A stretch of 32,994 bases of DNA from Candidatus Aminicenantota bacterium (GTDB lineage Bacteria; Acidobacteriota; Aminicenantia; Aminicenantales; Aminicenantaceae), in assembly GCA_011772475.1 (NCBI GenBank), contig WVZK01000092.1, forward strand, positions 1 through 32,994, read 5' to 3'. The position numbers were made by a program, and so were the translations under genes. Every line of letters starts with the position of its first letter. Positions within the stretch are counted from its first letter, which is position 1. Positions 5,828-27,070 of this stretch are shown here, one piece after another. The notes below the pieces were generated by a model. The model was not told where the DNA came from, made no database searches, and saw only the letters and a list, made by a program, of their open reading frames with translations.

Positions 5828-8344
5828 TTATTCTTCAGAAAGTTCAAATCTCTCCAAAATCTTAAGCATTTTCCTGCCTTTCTTAACCTTATCTTCGAAA
5901 GGAATATCCTCGATCAAAGGCAGGAGGACTTCTATTATTTCTTTCTTCACAATGTTGTCGAGAAGCTCTATAGAATAATCTATGGCTTTTTTGGTTCCAG
6001 TAGTAATATTTTGATAAGCTTTTATGATATCTTCCCTGGGGAAGATAAGACTTAGCAACTCAAAAATATATTTAAGCGACCGAGCTAAATTATTCTCTAA
6101 ATCTTTAGCCAAAAACTCTTTTTTCTTATCGGTTTCTAAATCATGGATTTCTTTTAAAATAAGGTAAGATTCTTTTATTTCCCGAATAATTTGAGGCACT
6201 ACAATCTGTTCTCGGAAATGAATTTCAGGCTTTTCTGACCTCATCTTATACATGGCGCTAACGATTTCAGATTCCACATCCCTGCTTTCTTTTCTTAATT
6301 CTAAGGACAATACATCAGCTGCCCTTTGAGCGCCTGTTTGAGCCAAAATACTAGGTATGGCCTTTCGTAATCGCACATTTTCACTCGGGTCGCCCAAATA
6401 ATCTTTTAGTGTACCTATAACCTTAACCCCATATTCTGCTAAGGCTTTATTGGCAGAACTCTGAAGGGAAGGATTTATTAAATTTTGGATTATATAAGGT
6501 ACAAGCTCCCGTTTTTTAAGCTTCCCAGCGCTCTCAAGAGCATAACTGACGACTTCTGGCGATTTATCCCTGAGAAGTTTACCTAGATTATGGACGACAG
6601 AGGGAGTCGGCTCCATCATCCCCATAACCTTAGCTGCCTCCATCCTAGAAACTTCCTCCTCTTTACCTTCCTCACCTACAATTTTATCGAGATGGTCTTT
6701 CATAAGTTCTTGATAAACATTCAAGGACATGATCTCTTTTACCTGGGCATCAAGGCTTTCCTCATCGAGAGCATCTTCGGTTTCCGGGATTAACACCTCT
6801 CCGTCTACTTCAAGAAGAGAATCCATAGAACTAGCCCTTACCTCGTCAGATTTATAAGAAATTATTTTTTTAAGCTTAGAGCTCAACTTTTCTTTCTTGA
6901 CAAGGTCAAAAAGATTCATGGCATACAGCACCGAACTCCTTTTCTTGCTTTCGATGGTGTCGAAAACCAGCTTTGTCATATCAATATCAATCTTTTCGGC
7001 AACAAATTTATCAGCATCTTGCCATTTTATCTCGATGTTTTTCTTCACAATATTCACATACTCCTTGGTAATCAAAAGGTTGAGAATGATCCAGATAAGT
7101 ATAAACGCGATGGCGACGAAGCTTATATATTTGATCTCAAAGCTCAGGACTGAGAAAAACAAAAGAATTAGAAGAGCTCCTATGCCTTTAGCAAACTTGT
7201 TGACGAACATGTCGATGAATACTTTTGCTTTGTACTTTATCTCAGGAGGGATCGGGATATAAAGCAATTCCCTGACAGATTGGTTGAGTGAATGAGCAAG
7301 ACTTTTGTCGGTTCCTTTGATAATAAGAGCCCAATAAACTAAAGCGAAAGGGAAAATAAAAATCACACCAGACAACAGCAACAAAAAGAATGGGGCAACC
7401 AAAAGAGCAACCCGAATTCCAAAATTTTTCAAGATGCTGTTGGTCGAGAAAACATGAAGGAGATTTGAAAAAATAAGGAATACGGTAAAAAATATGCCGA
7501 GAAAAGCAGTCCTCGCATCCTTGCTCGGATAGGCATCTTCGACAAAATAATTGAACTGAAAATCAATCAAAGTTGTAACAATAATAGCCGCTGCCATAAT
7601 CCCGGTCAAAAGCAACAAATGTCGATTTTTTCTAAGCAGGCCAAAGCTCTTACCATATCCAATTTTTGGCCTCTTCCGCACCTCAGCTGGCTTGACCTCC
7701 TCTTTTTTCTCTTTTTGAATGACTCTATGAACGCGACTGACAATGACGAGACAGATACAAAGCATAAAAGGGCAGATTAAAAGAAGATTTTCGGTTCCCA
7801 CAATTTTAGACAAAGAAGCAATGAGAGCTCCCGCAACTCCACCCAAAAGCCCTCCGCTCACTAAGAAGCCGACAAGTCTTTTTGCCTGCCGAGGATTATA
7901 AATATCATTGATCAATATCCAGAATTGAGTAACAGAAGTTACCAGGAATATATCTGCCCAGAACCAGAATACCATTGAAATCCAATTCCAGTATAAAAGA
8001 GGTAGCCAATTCCTTCCTTGAGTGAAAAGAAGCCAGAATATTAAAAGACAAGTTATGAAAAAGACCAAGCTGAGAGATATGTATACGTGTCTCTTCACAA
8101 CCCGCAGCAGCCTTGAGTTCAGGGTGACAAAAAATCCTATCAGGATGGCAGTCAAAAGATATGCATAAGGGAGTCTCCTGGATGAAAGCTTCTCCAGGAA
8201 ATCGGAAATCTTGACCAGTTTGATGATGTAAGCAGAAGAAGTGATCAGGAAAAAATAAGAAAACATAAGCCCAGAGGTAGATATTTCCTCAGGCCTGACA
8301 TCAACAAAGCGTGACAGAATTTTATGAAATGAGTTCTTAGCCAT
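5828..8344 (-). CDS. ATP/ADP translocase-like (Npt/NTT, MFS-type) membrane protein with C-terminal HEAT-like domain
   Basis: Multi-TM N-terminal half with VTQFWILINDIYNPRQAKRLVGFLVSGGLLGGVAGAL; C-terminal soluble alpha-helical repeats. The track start 8353 is GTG; ATG at 8344 gives MAKNSFHKILSRFV, aligning with the paralog MAKNLLNRVLSRFV. Confidence 0.75.
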   Translation of the reverse strand: MAKNSFHKILSRFVDVRPEEISTSGLMFSYFFLITSSAYIIKLVKISDFLEKLSSRRLPYAYLLTAILIGFFVTLNSRLLRVVKRHVYISLSLVFFITCLLIFWLLFTQGRNWLPLLYWNWISMVFWFWADIFLVTSVTQFWILINDIYNPRQAKRLVGFLVSGGLLGGVAGALIASLSKIVGTENLLLICPFMLCICLVIVSRVHRVIQKEKKEEVKPAEVRKRPKIGYGKSFGLLRKNRHLLLLTGIMAAAIIVTTLIDFQFNYFVEDAYPSKDARTAFLGIFFTVFLIFSNLLHVFSTNSILKNFGIRVALLVAPFFLLLLSGVIFIFPFALVYWALIIKGTDKSLAHSLNQSVRELLYIPIPPEIKYKAKVFIDMFVNKFAKGIGALLILLFFSVLSFEIKYISFVAIAFILIWIILNLLITKEYVNIVKKNIEIKWQDADKFVAEKIDIDMTKLVFDTIESKKRSSVLYAMNLFDLVKKEKLSSKLKKIISYKSDEVRASSMDSLLEVDGEVLIPETEDALDEESLDAQVKEIMSLNVYQELMKDHLDKIVGEEGKEEEVSRMEAAKVMGMMEPTPSVVHNLGKLLRDKSPEVVSYALESAGKLKKRELVPYIIQNLINPSLQSSANKALAEYGVKVIGTLKDYLGDPSENVRLRKAIPSILAQTGAQRAADVLSLELRKESRDVESEIVSAMYKMRSEKPEIHFREQIVVPQIIREIKESYLILKEIHDLETDKKKEFLAKDLENNLARSLKYIFELLSLIFPREDIIKAYQNITTGTKKAIDYSIELLDNIVKKEIIEVLLPLIEDIPFEDKVKKGRKMLKILERFELSEE

Positions 8345-8349
8345 TAAGT

Positions 8350-10872
8350 TCACTGCATCTTAGGAAAAGCCTTAAAAAGAACCCTGCATTTTTTTACCCT
8401 TTCTTCAAGCGAAAGATCTTCAATAAGCGGAAAGATTACATCTCTAATATCTTTGGGCAGTATATTATCGAGAAGTTCGACAGCATAATCTATAGAATCC
8501 TTCGTTGCCGTCCTTATGTTCTGGTATGCTCTGAAAATATCCTCGTGAGGATAGATGAGCCCCAATAATTTAAAAATGTTCATCATTGAAGCGGCCAGAT
8601 CCTCTGACAATTTTCCGCTCATCTCTGGCCTCTTTACTTCAGATTTTGTTTCGTAAGAATTAATAAGAATCTGATAGTATCTCTTTATTTCTTTGAATAT
8701 CTTAGTCTTTATAATCTCCGCCTGGACCTGAATATCAGGCTGTCCAGAACGAATCCTATCCAAAGCATCTATGAGCTCATTATCCATATCTTCGTTTTCT
8801 TCTGCTAACTCCCAGGCTAATAAATCTGCAGAATCTTGAATAGGAATTCGAGCCAAAACTGAAGCCACTTCTTTCCGCAATCCAACATCCTCGTCATAAT
8901 CTCCCAAATAATCTGACAGAGTACCGACAATTCTTTCCCCATATTTTTCAAGAGCAGCAGAGGCATCTTCTCTCGTTAAAGGATTATCTAACTTGTAGAT
9001 TAAGCCAGGAACAAGCTCTCTTCTCTTTAGCCTTGCCGCGCTTTCAATTGCATATTTACTCACTTCTGGCGATTCATCTTCAAGGAGTTCTTCAAGTTTT
9101 TGAGCAAGCGGAGAATCAGATTCCATCAATCCTATGGCTTTGGCCACTTCCATCTTTGATGTCTTAGTTTCATTAGTCTTATCAACTAGGACTTTGTCAA
9201 TGTATCCTTTCATCACCTCTTGATAAACATCTAGGGACATTATCTCTTGAACCTCTTTTTCCAAGACTTCCTCGCCTAACATGTCATCCGTTTCAGGAAT
9301 TAAGGTTGTCTCCCCAGATTCAAATAAACCCCCTAATGAAGCGACTCTCCTTTCATCGGCTTTATAAGAGATTAATTTTCTCACTTCAGGAGTGAGCTTA
9401 TCTTGCTTAATCAAATCATAGAGATGCATGGCGTACAAAACTGAACTTCTTTCCCTGCTTTCTATCGTATCAAAGACTAATTTTGTATAATCCACATCCA
9501 TCTTTTCAGCCACCAATCTATCCCCTCTATCCCACTTCACATCTAATTTCTGTTTAACAATATTGGTATACTCTTTGCTTACTTTTAGGTTAAGTAGAAG
9601 CCATGCTCCGATAAAAATAACAGCAATAATGCTCACAAGTTGAACTTTATCTCTCCAATCCCACTGCCAATTTTCAGGGGGAAGAAAGATATAAACTAAA
9701 AACAAAAGTATCAAGGCCCCAACGCCTTTGGCAAATCTATTGAGAAACATATCGATAAATACCTTTGCTTTATACTTAAGCTCCGGCGAGATAGGGATAT
9801 AAAGTAGCTCCCGCACATACTGGTTAATAGAAAAAGAGAGACTCTTATCGCCAGCTTTGATAGCAAGAGCAAAAACAAAAATTTCAGGCCGATAGCCTAT
9901 TCCAAAAATACAAAGCAACAATACTAGAGGGAAGAGTAAAAGAGTAACGCGAATCCCATAGCGTTTAAGAATATTGCTGGACATAAATATTGATATGAAA
10001 AAAGGAATAACCAACAATGCTGCATGAAAAAATCCAAAAAATTCCAACTTTTCATCCATTCTCTCTATTTTAATGTCGATAACAGTCTTGGACTGCCAAT
10101 CAATAAATGTTGAAACAATAAATGTTAAAGTCACGACACCAGCCAGAAGTTTTAAATAATAATTTTTTCTCACTGTATTAAAACAATCTATGAAGCCAAC
10201 CTTAACCTGCTCTGCCCCCCTTTCTCTATGTTTATGATCTACCTTATCATCTGGAGGGGACTTTTTTCTCTGCCAAATGAATATATGATTTACGACAAAA
10301 ATACTGAGCACAAGCAATCCAGAGGCAATGATAAGAACAATATCGGGCATGTCTCTACCTAATAATCCCGTCAGCAAACCCCCTAAGATACCTCCAAAAA
10401 GTCCGCCACTACCAAAGAAGCCAATCAGCCTTTTGACTTCTCTCGGATTAAAAATATCATTCACTAATATCCAGAATTGGGTTATAAGGACCACAACAAA
10501 AGTGTTTGCCCACACCCAAAATGCGAGAGGCATCCAACTCAAATCCAGATTGAAAAGCCAGCGAGAAAGTAAACAGGTGAGAGCAAAAAATGTGACGCTT
10601 GAGATTATTAAGACGCGTCTCTGAATTCTAACTTGAAGCTTGGTATAAAAATGAACAAAAAAACCCATAAAAAGAGCTGTTAATAAGTAGGCATAAGGTA
10701 GTCTTGCAGATGTTAACTCAATTAAGTATTTTGCATCTCTATAGGGTTTAATAATGTAATACGGGAACATAATAAGAAAGAGATAAAGAAAAAGAAGGGA
10801 GGCAATGACTTCTTCGCCGGGTTTGATCTCTACAAAGCGCGATAGAACTCTATTGAGGAGGTTTTTTGCCAT
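8350..10872 (-). CDS. ATP/ADP translocase-like (Npt/NTT) membrane protein with C-terminal HEAT-like domain (tandem paralog)
   Basis: Paralogous over full length to the downstream gene: ITQFWILVNDIFNPREVKRLIGFFGSGGLFGG; KLVFDTIESRERSSVLYAMHLYDLIK. Confidence 0.75.
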   Translation of the reverse strand: MAKNLLNRVLSRFVEIKPGEEVIASLLFLYLFLIMFPYYIIKPYRDAKYLIELTSARLPYAYLLTALFMGFFVHFYTKLQVRIQRRVLIISSVTFFALTCLLSRWLFNLDLSWMPLAFWVWANTFVVVLITQFWILVNDIFNPREVKRLIGFFGSGGLFGGILGGLLTGLLGRDMPDIVLIIASGLLVLSIFVVNHIFIWQRKKSPPDDKVDHKHRERGAEQVKVGFIDCFNTVRKNYYLKLLAGVVTLTFIVSTFIDWQSKTVIDIKIERMDEKLEFFGFFHAALLVIPFFISIFMSSNILKRYGIRVTLLLFPLVLLLCIFGIGYRPEIFVFALAIKAGDKSLSFSINQYVRELLYIPISPELKYKAKVFIDMFLNRFAKGVGALILLFLVYIFLPPENWQWDWRDKVQLVSIIAVIFIGAWLLLNLKVSKEYTNIVKQKLDVKWDRGDRLVAEKMDVDYTKLVFDTIESRERSSVLYAMHLYDLIKQDKLTPEVRKLISYKADERRVASLGGLFESGETTLIPETDDMLGEEVLEKEVQEIMSLDVYQEVMKGYIDKVLVDKTNETKTSKMEVAKAIGLMESDSPLAQKLEELLEDESPEVSKYAIESAARLKRRELVPGLIYKLDNPLTREDASAALEKYGERIVGTLSDYLGDYDEDVGLRKEVASVLARIPIQDSADLLAWELAEENEDMDNELIDALDRIRSGQPDIQVQAEIIKTKIFKEIKRYYQILINSYETKSEVKRPEMSGKLSEDLAASMMNIFKLLGLIYPHEDIFRAYQNIRTATKDSIDYAVELLDNILPKDIRDVIFPLIEDLSLEERVKKCRVLFKAFPKMQ

Positions 10873-10904: not shown

Positions 10905-11255
10905 TTACTGATCCTTATTAAAGCTATCCAAGGCGACTTCTTCTTCGTCAAAAATTTCAAGCACTTTAGTTAGCATTGTGACTTGAAAGACGAGGTAGAG
11001 TTTCTTTGATATTTTTGCTATCTTCAGTTTCCCCCCTAGATTATGAGTAGAAATATAGCTGGCCAATATTTCCCCTACCCCGAAGCTATCGATAAAATCG
11101 ACATTCTGAAAATTGAGAAGTATGTTCCTTTTGCCGGCATCCAATTGATCTTTAACGAGCTGATGAAGAGTGAAATCGGTTACGTCCGATCTTCTTATCT
11201 CCCCCTCGATATCAAAAATAACAATATCTGTTTTTTCTCTTGTATTAATTTCCAT
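10905..11255 (-). CDS. STAS domain protein (anti-sigma factor antagonist, RsbV-like)
   Basis: 116 aa; NILLNFQNVDFIDSFGVGEILASY carries the STAS phosphosite-type DSFGVG motif. Confidence 0.85.
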   Translation of the reverse strand: MEINTREKTDIVIFDIEGEIRRSDVTDFTLHQLVKDQLDAGKRNILLNFQNVDFIDSFGVGEILASYISTHNLGGKLKIAKISKKLYLVFQVTMLTKVLEIFDEEEVALDSFNKDQ

Positions 11256-11580: not shown

Positions 11581-11934
11581 CTACTTTTCATTCAGTAAAA
11601 TTGTGACAAGGATGAATCTATAGAGTTTTGGCTTTTCTCTAAAATCAAGTTCAGTAAACTTTACGCCATATGATAAAACCTCTTCTTCTTCTCTCTCCCA
11701 GATAATGTTTCCATATATATTGATATTAATATCCTCAGGTAAGTTCAGGTTGAAAATCAAGTCCGTGCCTAGAGGAAACCGAATATTAGTTACGACACAC
11801 ATCCCATCAAGACTGATATTCTTTATATAACCTTTTGCCTTTTTTTCAACCTTGAAATCTTCCCATAGCTGGACGTTTACTCTAACCAAAACCCTTGGAG
11901 CTTTCCTTCTTTCCAATTTTTTCCGTTTTTGCAT
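11581..11934 (-). CDS. PilZ domain protein
   Basis: RRKAPRVLVRVNVQL (RxxxR) and NISLDGM ([D/N]xSxxG) PilZ c-di-GMP motifs. Confidence 0.85.
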   Translation of the reverse strand: MQKRKKLERRKAPRVLVRVNVQLWEDFKVEKKAKGYIKNISLDGMCVVTNIRFPLGTDLIFNLNLPEDININIYGNIIWEREEEEVLSYGVKFTELDFREKPKLYRFILVTILLNEK

Positions 11935-12373: not shown

Positions 12374-13537
12374 ATGAAAAACGACGTTATTAAGTTAATG
12401 ATGAGAAAAACTAAAGCTATACTACTATTAGCCGTTCTCGCCTTCGCCTCTCTTGCCAATCTGTGTTCAGCTGATACACAGTGCGAATGGACTGGCATCG
12501 AAAAGATTGTAGCTGTGGGAGACATACACGGCGACTACCAGGCCTTCGTCGAAATTCTAAAAGGAACAGGATTAATAGATAAAAAACTCCATTGGACAGG
12601 TGGGAAGACTCACCTGGTTCAAATCGGGGATGTATTAGATAGAGGTGATTACGCCAAGGAAATTCTTGACCTGTTGATGCAACTGGAAAAAGAAGCAGAA
12701 GAAGCAGGAGGCATGGTTCATATGCTGATTGGCAATCATGAAGAACTAAATGTTACAGGCCTAATCTTTAACCGAGAAGAATTTACTACACGCCAACTTG
12801 TCTCTTTTCTTCCTGATGGGTACAGGGAGAAGCAAGTAAAAAGATTCAGAAAAATACTGGGAGACAATCCAACTACAGAAACAGGTCTGTATGCATCCTT
12901 AGATAGTGATTTAATCCCCTACTGGGAGAATATGTTTAACGAGGTGAAAGCAAGCCGCAGACATCCCGCTAGAAGGGAATACTTATACAATTTTAATAAG
13001 AAATACGGAAAATGGATCGTTAAACAAAATGCTGTAATTAAAATCAATAATATCGTATTTGCGCACGGGGGAGTCAGCGAGAGATTATCCAAATGGGAGC
13101 TAAAGAGAATAAATAATCGCCTTCGGTTAGAGTTAGAAGATCTGAGGCGGGCGGCGATGAATCAAACACGACCTAAGATTCAAGATTATCAGCGCCAAAT
13201 TGTTTATGCACCTGATGGGCCATACTGGTACAGGGGTTTTTATTTAATGGATGAAGATGAGAATAAAGACACCGTGGATACAATCCTAAAAAACCTCGGC
13301 GCTGAATACATGGTAATAGCCCATACTCCTCAGGTAATTAAGTCAAAGGAAGATATGCAGCTTTTTCAAGGAAGGATTTGGATAATCGATACTGGTATTT
13401 CAAAAATCTACAGAGAACACTTGCAGGGACGCCTCAGCGCCTTGATTATAAACAAAGGAGAATTCGATGTATGGGGGTTGGACAATGAAAAAAAAGAAAG
13501 CCTTAGCCATAATGATTCTTACATTCTTTTTCTCTGA
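12374..13537 (+). CDS. Secreted Shewanella-like PPP family phosphatase (metallophosphoesterase)
   Basis: Signal peptide MMRKTKAILLLAVLAFASLANLCSA; PPP motifs VGDIHGD, IGDVLDRGD, IGNHEE, FAHGG, WYRG, IAHTP. Confidence 0.85.
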   Translation: MKNDVIKLMMRKTKAILLLAVLAFASLANLCSADTQCEWTGIEKIVAVGDIHGDYQAFVEILKGTGLIDKKLHWTGGKTHLVQIGDVLDRGDYAKEILDLLMQLEKEAEEAGGMVHMLIGNHEELNVTGLIFNREEFTTRQLVSFLPDGYREKQVKRFRKILGDNPTTETGLYASLDSDLIPYWENMFNEVKASRRHPARREYLYNFNKKYGKWIVKQNAVIKINNIVFAHGGVSERLSKWELKRINNRLRLELEDLRRAAMNQTRPKIQDYQRQIVYAPDGPYWYRGFYLMDEDENKDTVDTILKNLGAEYMVIAHTPQVIKSKEDMQLFQGRIWIIDTGISKIYREHLQGRLSALIINKGEFDVWGLDNEKKESLSHNDSYILFL

Positions 13538-14276
13538 AGCCTGGTTTCACTCAAAATCACAAGCAGTTACTCAAGAAAATGAGAAGCAAAAAGAGCTGGA
13601 GAATTACTTAAGAACAGCTAAGATTGTATCTAAGAGGCGAGCAGGAGGCAGGGGAGAAAACTGGATAATAAGCCTGGACGATGGAAAAATTTCGAGCTAT
13701 GCATTCTATAAGCTTCTTGATGAAACTAGACCAGAGGCCCCTATCGGCGACAGCTATAAATACGGGATTGCTGCCTATGAGCTGGATAAACTCCTTGATC
13801 TTGGCTTAGTCCCTCCTGTCGTAGAAAGAGAAATAGAAGGCAGAAAAGGTTCGCTTCAGATATTCATCGAGGGCGCTCTATATGAAAGTGTCCGAAGGAT
13901 GAAGAATATTAAGCCACCAGAGCCTGAGAAGTTTAAAAATATTATGGAAGACTTAATTGTTTTTGAGAACTTGACTTGGTCCCCCTCCTATTGCGGAGAG
14001 AGAGAGCTGGACGATATCCTAATAATGCAGAGAGAGGACTGGAAAGTCTGGAGGGTTGACTTCTCTGAAGCCTTTCCCCCTTCACCAGAGCTAATCCCAG
14101 GATGCGAAATAACTGGCTGTTCCAAGAGGCTTTGTGAAAACCTGATAAAATTGAATGATGAAGCGATTAAAGCCAAGCTAAAGCCTTATCTAAATGATGA
14201 AGAAATGAGCATGTTGCTGAGAAGAAAAAAACTCATCGTTGAAAAGATCAAAAAACTAATTGCTGAAGAAGGGTAA
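13485..14276 (+). CDS. Secreted degenerate kinase-like protein (paralog of the genes at 17339 and 18250)
   Basis: Start MKKKKALAIMILTFFF (signal peptide) preferred over upstream ATG 13467; shared segments LRTAKIVSK, YGIAAYELDKLLDLGLVPPVVER, KGSLQIFI, WRVDFSEAF; the NxDRxxxN catalytic motif is not recognisable. Confidence 0.7.
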   Translation: MKKKKALAIMILTFFFSEAWFHSKSQAVTQENEKQKELENYLRTAKIVSKRRAGGRGENWIISLDDGKISSYAFYKLLDETRPEAPIGDSYKYGIAAYELDKLLDLGLVPPVVEREIEGRKGSLQIFIEGALYESVRRMKNIKPPEPEKFKNIMEDLIVFENLTWSPSYCGERELDDILIMQREDWKVWRVDFSEAFPPSPELIPGCEITGCSKRLCENLIKLNDEAIKAKLKPYLNDEEMSMLLRRKKLIVEKIKKLIAEEG

Positions 14277-14754: not shown

Positions 14755-16158
14755 ATGAAAAATTTGGGCAATGAAGAGATGGTGCAAACCGGGCAAAAAC
14801 CGCCTGGATTCGCTTATAAAATTCTCAGACTTTTCACAGTCGTCCATCCTGGCGAAGCTTTATCGGTTTTACTTTTAACGCTTAATGTATTTTTTCTCCT
14901 TACGGCCTATTACATCCTAAAACCAATAAGAGATGCCTTAATTGTTGAGGAGTGGGGTGCTAATATTAAACTTTATCTTAACGCTGTTGCAGCGGTTTTG
15001 CTGATATTTGTGGTTAAAATATTCAGCAGCATTGCTTCCAGGTTCCCACGTCAGAAATTAATCACATGGGTAACGCTCTTTTTCATTTCCAATATAGTAA
15101 TTTTCTATATTTTACATTTATCAGGTATTGGACCTGCAGTTTTTGGCATCGGTTTCTTTATTTGGGTAGGCATTTTTAACTTGGTCGTTATTGCTCAATT
15201 CTGGGGTTTTGCCAACGACTTATACACAGAGGAAGAAGGGAAACGCTTATTCCCTTTGATTGCTTTCGGAGCAGTCTTTGGAGGTTTTGCAGGAGGAATG
15301 ATAACTAGTTGGCTTGTGGAGCCTCTTGGAAAATATCAGCTGCTGCTTATATCAGGAGGATTACTGGGAATTTGTATTTTATTTACCTGGATTATTCATA
15401 GAAGAGAGATAAAAAGAATTGAGGCTAAGGTCTCTGAAGTTGGCCAGGAGGAAAAACTAAAGGTAGAAGTACATGAGAGACCCTTAGAAAAGGTAGGAGC
15501 ATTCCAGCTTCTCTTCAAAAATCGATATCTTCTCTACATCGGTTTTTTTGTTCTTTTGATGAACTTTATCAACACCAATGGTGTTTTTATACTAGACAAA
15601 GTAGGCGAAATCGCTGCAGCCAAAGCCACAGAAGCGGAATTTATGACTAAGTTTTATGCAAGCTTCTATAATATCCAGAATCTCTTCGCCATGTTCGTTC
15701 AGCTGTTCGTCGTATCTCGTGTCTTTAAATGGTTTGGAGTAAGAGTGGCGATCTTCATCCTTCCAGTTCTTGCTCTGGGAGGATATTTCTTTGTGGGCCT
15801 TGGAGCAGCTCTGGTATTGGTAAAATGGGTTAAAGCTTTGGAAAATGGTGCTGATTACTCGCTTGTGAACACAGCCCGGCATTCTCTGTTTCTAATCACT
15901 TCAAGAGAAGAAAAATACAAAGCCCAGGCCGTGACAAAAACCTTCTTCCATCGAGCAGGCGATGTGCTTGCTGCCGTGTTTGTTTTCTCATGTACAACTT
16001 TTCTAGCTTTTTTTACCATAGAGAATGTGGCGATGGTCAATGTTGTTCTGGTCTTGATCTGGATAACCATTTGCATTTTAATCTTCAAAGAGCACAAAAG
16101 ACTATCAGAGAAAAAAGCAGAGCTAGGCGTAGAATATTTGAAAACAGATGAAAAGTAG
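14755..16158 (+). CDS. Npt1/Npt2-type nucleotide transporter-like (ATP/ADP translocase family) protein, no HEAT extension
   Basis: 467 aa multi-TM; YYILKPIRDALIVEEWGANIK, VVIAQFWGFANDLYTEEEGKRLFPLIAFGAVFGGFAGG; RBS ggggagg upstream. Confidence 0.8.
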   Translation: MKNLGNEEMVQTGQKPPGFAYKILRLFTVVHPGEALSVLLLTLNVFFLLTAYYILKPIRDALIVEEWGANIKLYLNAVAAVLLIFVVKIFSSIASRFPRQKLITWVTLFFISNIVIFYILHLSGIGPAVFGIGFFIWVGIFNLVVIAQFWGFANDLYTEEEGKRLFPLIAFGAVFGGFAGGMITSWLVEPLGKYQLLLISGGLLGICILFTWIIHRREIKRIEAKVSEVGQEEKLKVEVHERPLEKVGAFQLLFKNRYLLYIGFFVLLMNFINTNGVFILDKVGEIAAAKATEAEFMTKFYASFYNIQNLFAMFVQLFVVSRVFKWFGVRVAIFILPVLALGGYFFVGLGAALVLVKWVKALENGADYSLVNTARHSLFLITSREEKYKAQAVTKTFFHRAGDVLAAVFVFSCTTFLAFFTIENVAMVNVVLVLIWITICILIFKEHKRLSEKKAELGVEYLKTDEK

Positions 16159-16178: not shown

Positions 16179-17027
16179 TTAGCGCAGGTCTTTGATTTTG
16201 ATGATTCCCCCCTCGCCCTGAGCAATGTACAAATAGCCTTCTTCATCCTTGGCAAGACCTTCCTGGTTGTTCCCGAGGAAAGCATATTCCCTGATTAATT
16301 TCCCCTCAAGAGTTATCTCTACCAGGATGTTGTAAGCATCGCTGACAATGTTTAAATTCCCTGTTTTTCTATCATAATACATGCCTCCAGGATCATCCAT
16401 TTTGAACGGTAGAACCCGGATAATCCTGGCCTCGGCCTCCTCGCCTTGGCTCGACTCAAGGGGAACCAGAATTTCCACTATACAAGCAGGGTCCCATTGA
16501 TTGCCCGCATAGAAAGTCCCGCCTTCAGGATGATCTTTATCAGCGACAAAAGCAATTGATTCAATCCCCTGATCGTAGCCTTCCTGTTTTTGGAGAAAGT
16601 TAGGATTTCCCTGGAATTCTCTGTTTATAGGAAATATTCGGCTGACCTGTCTCTTTTCAGGATCAAATTCCAGGATGACGTCCTCCCCTTCTCTGACGAT
16701 GTATAGAAGCCCTGATTGATGATTGACTGTTATCCCTTCCAAATCCCCGGGAATTTTTAGTCTAAATACAGGGTTTCCGTCAGTCTTTATTTCAGTAATT
16801 TCTCCTTCATCACTCACGACAAAAAGAGTTTTTCTGAGGGGGTGAAAACAGATACCCGAAGGTTCCACAAAGCTTTGCTGGTCAATGTTTACTCCATACC
16901 CAGGAATTCCCAGCCAATCTGCAGGAAATCGGATCGTCGGTGAATTTTCTTCTGGCGAACAACTGGCTAACAAAATTAAAGCGCCAAGCAAAAAAAGCTT
17001 TATTTTCATTCCCAATCCTTTTTTCAT
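16179..17027 (-). CDS. SdiA-regulated (YjiK-like) beta-propeller lipoprotein
   Basis: Lipobox LLASC; VEPSGICFHPLRKTLFVVSDEGEITEI, GDLEGITV, GIESIAF, NQEGLAKDEEGYLYIAQ. Confidence 0.8.
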   Translation of the reverse strand: MKKGLGMKIKLFLLGALILLASCSPEENSPTIRFPADWLGIPGYGVNIDQQSFVEPSGICFHPLRKTLFVVSDEGEITEIKTDGNPVFRLKIPGDLEGITVNHQSGLLYIVREGEDVILEFDPEKRQVSRIFPINREFQGNPNFLQKQEGYDQGIESIAFVADKDHPEGGTFYAGNQWDPACIVEILVPLESSQGEEAEARIIRVLPFKMDDPGGMYYDRKTGNLNIVSDAYNILVEITLEGKLIREYAFLGNNQEGLAKDEEGYLYIAQGEGGIIKIKDLR

Positions 17028-17253: not shown

Positions 17254-17338
17254 AAATTTTTTGGTTTGATTTTTTTTAAAAATGTAATTATATTATTAGA
17301 AAAATTTGAGGGGCAGTGTGAAACATGGAGGAATAGAA

Positions 17339-18172
17339 ATGAGACGGAAAATATTTCTTACCGTAGCTCTATTCATTTTTGCCAGCCAAAGCAATGTAGT
17401 CTACGGGCAGTTCACCCCTGATGAAATTGCTCAAAGGCAAGAAATAGAAGAATTTCTCAAAACTGCAGAGATCGTGAGATTCGAGGACATACCAGAAGGC
17501 GTTACAAAGCCAATCAGGCTCTTCTTAAAAAAAGGAGACGTTGAAATGAGCGGGGCCTGGAAAAATCCCAAGGGGATGCAAAAGGGCTTTCTTGAGGGAT
17601 GGCAGTATGAAATCGCAGCTTACGAGATGGATAAACTTCTGGAACTAAACTTGGTTCCACCCACAGTCGAGAGGATATTCAACAAGAAAAAAGGCTCCCT
17701 TCAGTTTTGGGTCGATGTTCAATTCAGTGAGCTCACTGTATTCGAACAAAAAATCGGGATTCCTCGTTCAAAATTCGAACACAAGGAGAATATGAAATAT
17801 TTAACGAGGGCTTTTGACTGCTTGATTGCGAACGATGATCGAACGCAGCAGAATATCCTCTACACCAAAGATTGGCGCGCGATTTTGATAGACCATTCTC
17901 GCTCTTTCCGGTCAAGCAAGAAATACACCAAGAAACTCATGTTTGGGAAAACAGGATTGAAAAAAGCCGGTGGTCGGCCCCAGCTCTTCAGGCGACTTCC
18001 TAGGGCTTTTGTGGAAAAGGTCAAAGCTCTGAACTATGATAATATAAAAAATGCTGTAGGTCCCTATTTAGAGGACAAGGAGATCAAAGCTATCCTTATC
18101 CGTAAGGAGCTTCTTCTTAAAGAAATAGAGGAGATGGTAAAGGAACAGGGCGAAGATAAGGTCTTATATTAA
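17339..18172 (+). CDS. Secreted PI3/4K-, HipA- or FAM20-like kinase-fold protein
   Basis: RBS GGAGGA (17327..17332) before ATG 17339; signal peptide MRRKIFLTVALFIFASQSNVVYG; SGAWKN (beta3 Lys), YEIAAYEMDKLLELNLVPPTVER, IANDDRTQQNILYTKDWRAILIDHSRSF. Confidence 0.75.
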   Translation: MRRKIFLTVALFIFASQSNVVYGQFTPDEIAQRQEIEEFLKTAEIVRFEDIPEGVTKPIRLFLKKGDVEMSGAWKNPKGMQKGFLEGWQYEIAAYEMDKLLELNLVPPTVERIFNKKKGSLQFWVDVQFSELTVFEQKIGIPRSKFEHKENMKYLTRAFDCLIANDDRTQQNILYTKDWRAILIDHSRSFRSSKKYTKKLMFGKTGLKKAGGRPQLFRRLPRAFVEKVKALNYDNIKNAVGPYLEDKEIKAILIRKELLLKEIEEMVKEQGEDKVLY

Positions 18173-18249: not shown

Positions 18250-19086
18250 ATGAAAAAAAGACTGATTATCTTTTTCGGTTTGGTGCTTGTTTTAGGATTT
18301 AGTTTCCAATCCATAGCTCAATTCACCAAAGAAGAGGCGGCAGACAGGGAGAAATGGGAAGAATTCCTCAAGACAGCAGAAATTATCGCTCAAGAACAAC
18401 CATTCGATAAACGAGAAGCTGTGACCGAGCCCTGGGTCCTCACTCTGGAAAAAGACGGAGTCAAAAATAAAGCCATATGGAAAGATGTACAAGGCCGGGC
18501 AAAAGGATTTATGGAAAGCTGGAAATGGGAAATTGCTGCCTACCTTTTAGATAAGCATTTGGGCTTGAATATGGTTCCGCCCACAGTGGAAAGAAGATTC
18601 CAGGGAAATCGCGGCTCCTGCCAATTATGGATTAAATCGATGATGAGTCTCAAGAAAAAATTCGAGGAAAAAATTAAGACTCCCTCTATTAAAGTTTTTT
18701 ATTGGAATAGAGCCTTCTACAAACAGCGGGCTTTTGATAACTTAATTGCTAACGAAGATAGACATCAAAATCAATATCTCATCACCGATGATTGGCGCAT
18801 GATCCTAATTGACCACTCCCGGTCGTTCCGGACTGCCAAGAAATTTACCAAAAAACTCATCTATGACGAAAAATACAAAGAAGGCCCAACGTTTATCATG
18901 AGGGAACTTCCCCGCGATCTTTACGAGAAGATAAAATCCCTGAATGCTGAGGTGATAAAAGGCGTCGTCGGAGAATATCTGACAGATAGCGAAATCGAGG
19001 CAGTGCTTATCCGGAAGGACTTGATAGTCAATTGGATTGAGGATCGCATCAAACAAATGGGGGAAGATAAAGTCTTATACGATTAG
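18250..19086 (+). CDS. Secreted PI3/4K-, HipA- or FAM20-like kinase-fold protein (tandem paralog)
   Basis: Signal peptide MKKRLIIFFGLVLVLGFSFQSIA; NKAIWKD, WEIAAYLLDKHLGLNMVPPTVER, IANEDRHQNQYLITDDWRMILIDHSRSF; RBS aggaggag upstream. Confidence 0.8.
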   Translation: MKKRLIIFFGLVLVLGFSFQSIAQFTKEEAADREKWEEFLKTAEIIAQEQPFDKREAVTEPWVLTLEKDGVKNKAIWKDVQGRAKGFMESWKWEIAAYLLDKHLGLNMVPPTVERRFQGNRGSCQLWIKSMMSLKKKFEEKIKTPSIKVFYWNRAFYKQRAFDNLIANEDRHQNQYLITDDWRMILIDHSRSFRTAKKFTKKLIYDEKYKEGPTFIMRELPRDLYEKIKSLNAEVIKGVVGEYLTDSEIEAVLIRKDLIVNWIEDRIKQMGEDKVLYD

Positions 19087-19505
19087 ATAGAGGACTGCGC
19101 TTCTTTAATTGTTTTATAAATAGTAAGAACGTTCTGATCTTTCTCCCGCTTGTAATCAAATCCATCCATAAGCTTGCGGGAAAGGAAAACTCCTAATCCA
19201 CCTTTTTTCTCGCTCTTGATTATCTCCCGGATATTAGGCTCCTCCAATCCTCTAGGATCAAACGGAACGCCCCAATCCCTTATTTCCAGATACATCTTTC
19301 CCTCGTCCAACCAAATCTTAAGAAAGATCTCGCCTTTATTATTAGGATAAGCATACCTGATAATATTTACACATATCTCCAGGAGCGCGAGTTCTATCTT
19401 AAAGTAATCCTTATCTGAAACACTCAATCCTTCCAAGTTTTGCTTCAAAAAAGTCCTCATCTTATCTAACTCAGCTAAATCACTTGCGATTTTTATTGTA
19501 TTCAT
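19083..19505 (-). CDS. ATP-binding anti-sigma regulatory factor (RsbW-like, HATPase_c_2)
   Basis: FKIELALLEICVNIIRYAYPN (N-box), LEIRDWGVPFDP (G1), KKGGLGVFLSRKLMD (G2). Confidence 0.85.
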   Translation of the reverse strand: MNTIKIASDLAELDKMRTFLKQNLEGLSVSDKDYFKIELALLEICVNIIRYAYPNNKGEIFLKIWLDEGKMYLEIRDWGVPFDPRGLEEPNIREIIKSEKKGGLGVFLSRKLMDGFDYKREKDQNVLTIYKTIKEAQSSI

Positions 19506-25075: not shown

Positions 25076-27070
25076 TTATATCTTATCTTCCTTTGTAATT
25101 TTCCAGACATTTCCTTGTTTTTCCATTGTCCAGATTACTTGTCCCTCAAAAACCTTTTCCCTCTGACCAGTTTGTTTGTTAACAGCAGTCGAGAAATTAA
25201 AAAATTTTACGTCGGCATGCTTTCTATCTTTAAATCTAATCGAAATACTCGCCTTGTCTACGATAGACATTATATCATCATAATAATTAATGATTTCCCG
25301 TAAATCTGATCTTTTCGTATACTGCAACTCTGGAGACCCGACATAAGAGATAATTAGTGGGAGGTCTTTTTCCTCCTCGGCTTTCCTCAGTGTTTCTATT
25401 ATTCGTTTAATTTCATTCTTGGAGTTAGCTTCATAAATGATATTATCCGCTAAATTCCAGTATTTTTTAGCCTCTTTATGATCCTTATCCAACTTTAAAA
25501 TCTTTTCCATTTCCCGCATGCTTTTTCTATAGTCTTTGTTATTATAACTGTTGATCCCGGTCTCAAGGGTTTGGGCGATCATAATCTCATTATTCGCTTT
25601 TGTTATTAGATCTTGAGCTTCATTGTTTTTGGGGTATTTTGCAATAACTTCTTCTGCAAGCCTTATCGTCTCGTCATAATCGCCTTTCTCAAAACTTTCG
25701 TTAGCCCTGTTCAATTTATCTTCTGTGCTGCCAGGAATGACAGCTCTTGTCTCGGGAGGTTCTTTTGTATCTATCTTTTTTTCGGCTTCAGCAACGTCCG
25801 GTTTTTTATCTTGAGGCAAGGAAGGTGCCTCTGCCTTTATTTCTTCTGTCCCCGGAGTTTGAGCAACCAGGGCTTCATCTATTTTGCTTTTTGCTTCACT
25901 TAAGTATTGCTGGGCTCTTATGTTTTCAGCATCTTCGGAGAGAACCTCTTCTGCCAGTCTTACTGTCTCCGTATAGTCCGCCTTATCAAAGCTCTCTTTA
26001 GCCCTGTTCAGTTTATCTTCTATACTACCAGGTGGCGGGGATACCAGAGATTTTTCTGCTTTCGTTCCTTTGAACAGGCCTGAAAGAAAAGGTATCTCTC
26101 CTGTCTTTTGGTAGGAAAAATAGCCAGCTCCTGCAGCGGCCAACAGAATCACTGCTGAGGAAATGGCTATGACGGGCCAAACTTTCCGCTTTTTCTTCAT
26201 CATCAAGGTTGGGAGTTCCTCTTTAGCCATTGTAACGGGTATTGTCTTATCAGATATTTGGTCAAAATTGTGCAAATCTGAGGCAACCTCAGCACAAGTC
26301 TGGTAGCGATCTCTCGGATCTTTAGCTAAAGCCTTACAGACTATCTGTTCAAAACCAACTGGTAGACCTTTTTTTACTTCAGTCAAAGCAACTGGCTCTT
26401 CATTGATAATCTTATAAATTACTGTGGTAATACTTTGAGCCTGAAAAGCCCTTTGTCCCGTGAGAAGCTCGTAAAGGATGCTCCCCAATGAGAATATATC
26501 TGAGCGCCTATCTACCTTTTTCCCCATAACCTGCTCCGGGGACATATAACTCGGTGTACCCAGCGTTGTCCCCGCTTCAGTCAAGGTCGATGTCTCAAGA
26601 CGAGCTACTCCAAAGTCAACAATGAAAGGTTTCCCCACTTTATCCAATAAAATATTGGCAGGCTTAATATCTCTATGGATGATTCCATTATTATGAGCAT
26701 AATCTAAAGCTTTGCATAATTGGTCCATGAGCTCGATTACTTCATGAGTGGATATTTTCTCACCTGAACTTATTACCTTTTGGAGACTCTTGCCTTCTAT
26801 CAATTGCATAACAATGTATGTCATGTCTTTTCCTCTGCCGACATCATAGATGGTGATAATATTTGAGTGGGTTAGCTTACCTGCAGCCTGAGCCTCCCTC
26901 ATGAACCTTTCCATCATTTCTTCTCTGTCACCTTCCTCAGAGACCAGGTCAAAGCGTATAGTCTTTATAGCCACTTCTCGATTTATATCGGGATCAAGGG
27001 CTTTATAGACAATCCCCATGGCTCCCTTTCCAAGGATGCTGGTGATTTTGTATTTGCCTATATTTTTCAT
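25076..27070 (-). CDS. Transmembrane Ser/Thr protein kinase with extracytoplasmic TPR-like region and C-terminal NTF2/SnoaL-like domain
   Basis: Kinase motifs GKGAMG, AIKTI, HRDIKPANILLD, DFGVARLE, GTPSYMSPEQ; TM VWPVIAISSAVILLAAAGAGYF; C-terminal EGQVIWTMEKQGNVWKITKED. Confidence 0.9.
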   Translation of the reverse strand: MKNIGKYKITSILGKGAMGIVYKALDPDINREVAIKTIRFDLVSEEGDREEMMERFMREAQAAGKLTHSNIITIYDVGRGKDMTYIVMQLIEGKSLQKVISSGEKISTHEVIELMDQLCKALDYAHNNGIIHRDIKPANILLDKVGKPFIVDFGVARLETSTLTEAGTTLGTPSYMSPEQVMGKKVDRRSDIFSLGSILYELLTGQRAFQAQSITTVIYKIINEEPVALTEVKKGLPVGFEQIVCKALAKDPRDRYQTCAEVASDLHNFDQISDKTIPVTMAKEELPTLMMKKKRKVWPVIAISSAVILLAAAGAGYFSYQKTGEIPFLSGLFKGTKAEKSLVSPPPGSIEDKLNRAKESFDKADYTETVRLAEEVLSEDAENIRAQQYLSEAKSKIDEALVAQTPGTEEIKAEAPSLPQDKKPDVAEAEKKIDTKEPPETRAVIPGSTEDKLNRANESFEKGDYDETIRLAEEVIAKYPKNNEAQDLITKANNEIMIAQTLETGINSYNNKDYRKSMREMEKILKLDKDHKEAKKYWNLADNIIYEANSKNEIKRIIETLRKAEEEKDLPLIISYVGSPELQYTKRSDLREIINYYDDIMSIVDKASISIRFKDRKHADVKFFNFSTAVNKQTGQREKVFEGQVIWTMEKQGNVWKITKEDKI

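Follow-up and report, generated by a model that had tools for sequence, protein, structure and literature searches.

What does a kinase-fold protein do once its catalytic residue has gone, and which of its neighbours does it serve? The question is raised by a gene in the window (the whole stretch of DNA analysed, 32,994 nucleotides from a Candidatus Aminicenantota bacterium), which lies between a phosphatase gene and two genes for predicted secreted FAM20-like kinases, kinA and kinB (Table 1). A sequence-only reading had described it as a degenerate copy of the kinase genes, encoding a candidate secreted pseudokinase that would be an allosteric partner of the two intact copies, as FAM20A is of FAM20C. 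The open reading frame and the motifs quoted for it are real, all within 13467/13485..14276 on the forward strand, and its place as third member of the family was borne out by homology to the ORFs at 17339 and 18250 (BLAST 77 and 92 bits, 26% identity). From sequence reading, the pseudokinase has a signal-peptide-like start, and a hydrophobic, signal-peptide-like N-terminal stretch is common to all four enzyme-like proteins (phosphatase, pseudokinase, kinA and kinB).

Table 1. Coordinates of genes and residues at the pseudokinase locus
Feature	Position	Strand	Remarks
Calcineurin-like (Shewanella-like PPP) phosphatase	12374..13537	+	Active-site motifs intact; directly upstream of pseudokinase
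Secreted FAM20-fold pseudokinase (predicted)	13485..14276	+	263 aa; alternative upstream start 13467
Lys76, beta3-type Lys	13710..13712	+	Lys in 54/60 orthologs, Arg in 6/60
Asp89	13749..13751	+	In the column where FAM20A has Gln; 51/60 orthologs have Asp
Gly94 at alphaC Glu position	13764..13766	+	Local to a side branch, 6/60 orthologs
Dead catalytic loop (predicted)	13980..13994	+	Ser168 in catalytic Asp column; Cys170 is putative disulfide partner
Asp177 in metal Asn column	14013..14015	+	Asp in 59/60 orthologs
Asp192, DFG-like Asp	14058..14060	+	Kept in 60/60 orthologs
Cys207 to Cys212	14103..14120	+	Cys207 covaries with loop Cys; Cys212 column is Cys in 59/60
TLC/NTT ATP/ADP carrier family protein	14755..16158	+	Single domain; Pfam family match
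SdiA-regulated/phytase-like gene	16179..17027	-	Between TLC/NTT carrier and kinA
kinA, secreted FAM20-like kinase (predicted)	17306..18172 (start 17306 or 17339)	+	Catalytic residues intact
kinB, secreted FAM20-like kinase (predicted)	18250..19086	+	Catalytic Asp residues intact
RsbW-like HATPase gene	19083-19505	-	Converges on kinB, 4-nt overlap with kinB end

The AlphaFold2 model of the pseudokinase (pLDDT 93.1, pTM 0.87) was compared with solved structures. Foldseek and VIA-align returned Fam20C (5yh0; Z 18.7, rmsd 3.3, 227 residues aligned), PI4KIIbeta (4wtv; Z 18.7, rmsd 2.9, 210 aligned), hydra Fam20 (Z 18.6, rmsd 3.2, 223 aligned), FAM20C 5yh3_C (Z 18.4), FAM20A 5wrr (Z 17.2, rmsd 3.7, 227 aligned) and CtkA (Z 16.3, rmsd 2.9, 194 aligned), against a Z of about 11.7 for HipA. 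The modelled fold is that of the FAM20/PI4KII group of kinases. Searched singly against Pfam and NCBIfam, the pseudokinase had no match above cut-off, while a profile of the pseudokinase alignment had FAM20A as its best sequence match in the PDB (E 3e-7). The 53 members of alignment A2 gave no match to the Pfam family for Fam20C (PF06702) at E<=1, and kinA and kinB scored below its cut-off (13.0 and 13.6 vs 26.8 bits). A HipA label, suggested by weak Pfam matches of the two kinases to HipA-like kinases (PF20613; kinA 17.5 and kinB 14.8 bits vs a cut-off of 27, with no match for the pseudokinase), was rejected, as these scores are below cut-off and HipA structures gave Z of about 10-12 vs 18.7 for Fam20C and PI4KIIbeta. 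All three paralogs resemble the SCO1664 profile (TIGR03843) weakly (23-48 bits vs a cut-off of 172.4; 23.3 bits for the pseudokinase).

Orthologs were sought in 99 genomes including that of the window, nearly all of them metagenome-assembled (MAGs), and family members were present in 67. Matches fell into an ortholog group with about 35-84% identity to the pseudokinase (E<=1e-35) and a kinA/kinB-like group at about 30%, with few intermediates. We fetched 60 stretches around the better matches (L032 included), to which the window and the second copy of the same genome were added, and classed their ORFs by BLAST; L093 was dropped as kinase-like rather than orthologous, and the matches G042:C21, G054:C394, G040:C43 and G051:C261 stand outside the set of 60. 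The resulting alignment holds 60 pseudokinase, 48 kinA-like and 43 kinB-like sequences, the 60 pseudokinases being spread over 58 genomes, with a pair of loci in each of two genomes. Leaving out the genome of the window (G000), orthologs of the pseudokinase are present in 57/98 related genomes, and its named relatives are Candidatus Aminicenantes MAGs. All 60 form a single clade in the FastTree phylogeny (support 1.0), so that the catalytic Asp was lost before the sampled lineages diversified.

This loss is universal. The catalytic Asp column has Asp in none of the 60 pseudokinases (39 Cys, 7 Ser, 7 Arg and 7 others) vs 47/48 kinA and 42/43 kinB rows, the remaining two being gaps (89/89 of those with a residue), and the replacement of the catalytic-loop motif noticed in the single sequence thus extends to every ortholog. 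Judged by alignment, the loop of the window protein has no evident catalytic Asp at a shifted position, and the next Asp, Asp177, falls in the column of the metal-binding Asn/Gln. With a kinase fold, a conserved gene and no catalytic Asp throughout the clade, the protein fits the general definition of a pseudokinase and is predicted to be inactive, as the sequence-only reading had proposed; its observation that the beta3-like Lys and the metal-site Asp remain also holds (Table 1). A change from alphaC Glu to Gly, to which the same reading drew attention, is present in the window protein at the YxIAAY position, but this column, aligned with the NAEIAAF Glu of FAM20C in the PDB profile alignment, holds 40 Glu, 12 Asp, 6 Gly, 1 Ala and 1 Val, and with Gly in just 6/60 orthologs it is a side-branch change which was ruled out as the defining lesion. 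Other residues are conserved specifically in this clade (Arg56-type, Arg190-type and Cys212-type, each 59/60). A Cys in the loop (columns 258-260) is accompanied in 49 of 49 sequences by a second Cys that follows the DFG-like motif (column 300), while the second Cys occurs in one of the 11 lacking the first (Fisher 1.5e-10, with no correction for phylogeny). The two correspond to Cys170 and Cys207 of the window protein, which from their covariation probably form a disulfide locking the dead catalytic loop.

With regard to the partner of the pseudokinase, the adjoining phosphatase gene has the closest genomic tie. Its best matches in the PDB are the entries for the cold-active PTPase of Shewanella (1v73/2z72; E about 4e-36), a type known as the "Shewanella-like protein phosphatase". 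Motifs (DxH, GDxxDRG and GNHE) and similarity to 1v73 place the gene among the Shewanella-like PPP phosphatases, and SLP1 is assigned to the PPP family in the accessible text of PMC12834941. Of 60 phosphatase rows, 57 contain GNHE and the remaining three are short or split fragments; L040 and L043 gave no regex match to GDxxDRG. In the window, the 3' end of the phosphatase gene overlaps the pseudokinase start at 13485 by 53 nt. A phosphatase gene is found immediately upstream on the same strand in 43/60 pseudokinase loci, mostly overlapping, and forms a single ORF with the pseudokinase in 15/60 (with the phosphatase part divided between two ORFs in L074, and a start inside the phosphatase in L049); it is adjacent in L078 once an over-long ORF start is discounted, and L092 starts at a contig edge and is hence uninformative. 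The phosphatase is therefore directly upstream or fused in 59/59 informative loci. Across the 98 genomes without G000 (cut-offs E 1e-35 for the pseudokinase, 1e-20 for the phosphatase, and 1e-50 for the kinases and TLC), both genes occur in 55, one only in three and neither in 40; the three exceptions comprise G014 and G085, where the loci reach contig ends, and G029, which has partial phosphatase matches. The model of one fused protein (L140, 618 aa; pLDDT 88.6, pTM 0.60) has two well-ordered domains, the first matching the Shewanella PTPase (1v73) and the second Fam20 structures, and a low-confidence linker (372-383). A rigid interface between the two was sought in this model and none was predicted with confidence, so that the model would favour a tether over a fixed interface. 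The genomic evidence points to the phosphatase before the kinases as the best-supported candidate partner.

On this basis we consider it probable (about 0.68) that the secreted pseudokinase is the non-catalytic half of a phosphatase-pseudokinase pair, and that it would aim or gate a phosphatase opposing two secreted kinases. KinA and kinB would phosphorylate an extracytoplasmic substrate, which could be a protein, glycan or lipid, and the phosphatase would strip the phosphate they add. The pseudokinase may take the phosphatase to the substrate or a partner of the kinases, or may gate it by nucleotide, for which it could use the retained substrate- or partner-binding surface of a kinase and perhaps nucleotide binding (Lys76, Asp89, Asp177 and Asp192 are kept), with the Cys170-Cys207 disulfide as a probable lock. 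In descent, a kinase linked to the phosphatase would have given up its activity, while the separate kinases retained theirs.

Elsewhere, a phosphatase and a kinase domain occur together in single proteins. When genome contigs were scanned with a profile of the pseudokinase alignment, 63 loci were obtained; among those outside Aminicenantes are unfused kinases from other Acidobacteria, and single proteins of gammaproteobacteria (Kangiella, Lysobacter, Neiella, Thalassotalea and Steroidobacteraceae) in which an N-terminal phosphatase is joined to a C-terminal kinase domain. The fused alignment, used in wider searches, gave matches in 61/297 genomes of the phylum of the window and in 21/247 genomes of the order of Kangiella shandongensis. 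Fused ORFs were taken from the matches listed, nine duplicate genes being removed to leave 50, and L226, read by motif only, stands outside this count. A kinase was scored dead when the catalytic or DFG-like Asp was replaced, and a phosphatase live when seven or more of its eight signature residues were present. Among these listed matches, both active sites are intact in 24/50, a live phosphatase is joined to a dead kinase in 17/50, a dead phosphatase to a live kinase in 5/50, and a live phosphatase to a kinase without the beta3 Lys but with both Asp residues in 4/50; both halves are dead in 0/50, vs 1.7 expected under independence, which makes the zero weak evidence by itself. Three fused ORFs (L172, L175 and L186, in G108, G107 and G186) show a different kind of altered kinase beside a live phosphatase, in which both Asp residues are kept, the beta3 Lys is replaced by His and the alphaC Glu by Gln.

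On an IQ-TREE phylogeny of the listed matches, which was midpoint-rooted and has several deep nodes with support below 75, the dead-kinase state needs four losses: in the Aminicenantes clade (with L183), in L165/L166, in L147 gene 1/L217, and in L218/L219/L221. The active site of the kinase half has thus been lost repeatedly beside a live phosphatase in fused proteins of other bacteria. In a Kangiellaceae MAG (L147), the first of two neighbouring fused genes has 8/8 phosphatase signature residues and a dead kinase, while the second has a dead phosphatase and an intact kinase, and G625 (L217, L224) has the same reciprocal tandem arrangement; the dead-kinase copies of both genomes group together, as do the live-kinase copies (IQ-TREE support 100 each). 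In G289, an ORF with phosphatase motifs and an Asp-less kinase domain (GLEQRDDSD) is oriented divergently next to two unfused intact-loop kinases, and this layout looks like that of the window. Since the beta3 Lys is also gone from L147 gene 1 and L217, and the DFG-like Asp also from L147 gene 1, nucleotide binding cannot be general among these dead-kinase parallels.

The genomic context also includes the kinases. In 47/60 pseudokinase loci they lie no more than 6 kb downstream and in the same orientation, and kinA/kinB-like genes are present in all 57 pseudokinase-bearing genomes, so context alone is compatible with a pseudokinase acting on the kinases. It could then bind kinA and/or kinB and activate them allosterically as FAM20A does its partner, with the tie to the phosphatase merely bringing the eraser to the complex. 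A pseudokinase of the FAM20A type would form a heterodimer with a paralogous kinase and activate it, and would show inverted ATP binding. The two share a FAM20/PI4KII-group fold, secretion (predicted here), catalytic incompetence, a cysteine pattern of their own and active paralogs encoded alongside, and the pseudokinase profile has its best PDB match in FAM20A, so that the parallel drawn by the sequence-only reading stands for fold and pseudokinase status. It does not extend to the lesion. FAM20A has Gln for the acidic residue before helix alphaC, given in PMC5865150 as part of why it is a pseudokinase, in a column five positions before the alphaC-type Glu, and keeps the catalytic Asp (NMDRHH) in the PDB profile alignment, whereas the window pseudokinase keeps the acidic residue (Asp89) and has lost the Asp; with different residues lost, its lesion is not of the FAM20A type. 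The disulfide pattern which PMC5413348 describes for Fam20A is at a different position from Cys170-Cys207, and FAM20A is a protein of the vertebrate secretory pathway, whereas the window protein is bacterial and shorter (263 aa).

The partners differ as well, a kinase for FAM20A vs a phosphatase as the strongest link of the pseudokinase. Fusion to the phosphatase in 15/60 loci is matched by no pseudokinase-kinase fusion noticed in an unsystematic look among the BLAST-classed ORF rows; nine genomes, mostly incomplete, have kinases without a pseudokinase; and the tie in gammaproteobacteria is with the phosphatase, no separate kinases being seen in most genomes. The kinases proposed as partners thus keep a genomic link to the pseudokinase, but we consider this allosteric role unlikely and the phosphatase the better-supported partner. 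Of the kinases themselves, a kinB query of the genome returned the three window copies and a fourth, active-type copy at G000:C202. This paralog (G000:C202:2631-3449; L002 1498-2415) is kinB-like with an intact NDDRHAGN loop and lies beside an acyltransferase-like ORF. Separately, in kinB column 269 (Gln175 in the window), Gln replaces the metal-binding Asn in 18/42 kinB rows, with both Asp residues kept. The region also encodes a Hanks-type kinase (25076-27070, minus strand; classical Pkinase family of Ser/Thr kinases, Pfam 3.4e-57).

An alternative to a non-catalytic role is that the protein is changed rather than dead, with the Lys, the metal Asp residues and Asp177 serving another reaction (e.g. 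AMP transfer) or slow phosphotransfer. These residues are well conserved (Lys 54/60, DFG-like Asp 60/60, Asp177-type 59/60) and kinase-fold proteins transferring other groups are described in PMC7948968, but the catalytic Asp column offers no conserved candidate base and its Cys covaries with another Cys in a disulfide-like manner, which makes a catalytic function quite improbable. That the gene is a decaying paralog under relaxed selection, as its lost catalytic residues and a dN/dS above that of the kinases (0.33-0.43 vs 0.15-0.30) could suggest, is so improbable that it can be largely dismissed, since the frames are intact, the orthologs form a single clade over 58 genomes with conserved residues of its own, and dN/dS stays well below 1. 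Among the three closest orthologs it was 0.33, 0.43 and 0.39, against values from the same three of 0.20-0.30 (kinA), 0.15-0.20 (kinB), 0.28-0.30 (phosphatase) and 0.23-0.28 (TLC); the pseudokinase evolves faster than the kinases, and is under purifying selection. The description of the gene as a decayed copy therefore had to be abandoned, while its predicted nature as a secreted pseudokinase was retained.

The non-catalytic phosphatase partner favoured here would act in a locus which usually also encodes a carrier. The 14755-16158 protein passes the Pfam PF03219 gathering score (45.8 bits vs 21) and has no solved relative at E<=0.1. A related TLC gene lies directly downstream on the same strand in 43/60 pseudokinase loci, six of the 17 others having less than 1.5 kb of contig remaining, and in the 98 genomes the pseudokinase and this TLC type are found together in 52, either alone in eight and neither in 38. 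By Pfam cut-off the protein is a single-domain member of the NTT/TLC carriers of free-living bacteria, which in the accessible text of PMC5381601 are widespread with roles unknown, while the characterised members are those for ATP import in parasites and plastids. We infer that the carrier would export ATP for the secreted kinases, and it may provide ATP beyond the inner membrane.

Several further genes surround the locus. Two minus-strand genes (5828-8353 and 8350-10872) encode a tandem pair of 840-aa TLC-like proteins, the second of which, the one searched against Pfam, has TLC and HEAT repeats and resembles published NTT-HEAT fusions; they are adjoined by genes for a STAS-domain protein (10905-11255) and a PilZ protein (11581-11934). 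Relatives of the SdiA-regulated/phytase-like gene and of the RsbW-like HATPase gene occur in 20 and 38 other fetched loci, respectively.

By sequence, a phosphatase with intact active site and an Asp-less FAM20-type domain co-occur with active-type kinases and usually a TLC/NTT carrier, which suggests a writer-and-eraser phosphorylation system outside the cytoplasm. The window phosphatase differs from other Shewanella-like phosphatases by its kinase-fold partner domain or gene, and among the papers listed by searches of open-access PMC none describes a FAM20-like kinase that is fused to, or shares a locus with, a Shewanella-like phosphatase. The accessible part of a 2025 review on families of bacterial pseudokinases (PMC12599244) has Fam20 in its reference list only, and the accessible text on the Legionella kinome counts FAM20 with the clusters specific to eukaryotes or metazoans and places some Legionella families close to a FAM20/CotH group (PMC9758233). 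A wider proposal, which we put forward as tentative and rather doubtful in its entirety, would be a complete bacterial extracytoplasmic circuit of FAM20-like secreted kinases, an opposing PPP phosphatase under the control of an inbuilt nucleotide-sensing pseudokinase, and a dedicated ATP-exporting NTT, derived from bifunctional kinase-phosphatase enzymes by reciprocal loss of one activity between paralogs. Natural before-and-after states are available in single-chain relatives that keep both sites intact (e.g. in Kangiella and Lysobacter), as well as in the reciprocal tandem pairs. If the TLC/NTT gene provides extracytoplasmic ATP, this would bear on the ATP source of bacterial secreted kinases, and if the tie of the pseudokinase to the phosphatase holds across lineages, a dead kinase as targeting or gating unit of a phosphatase would be a testable principle.
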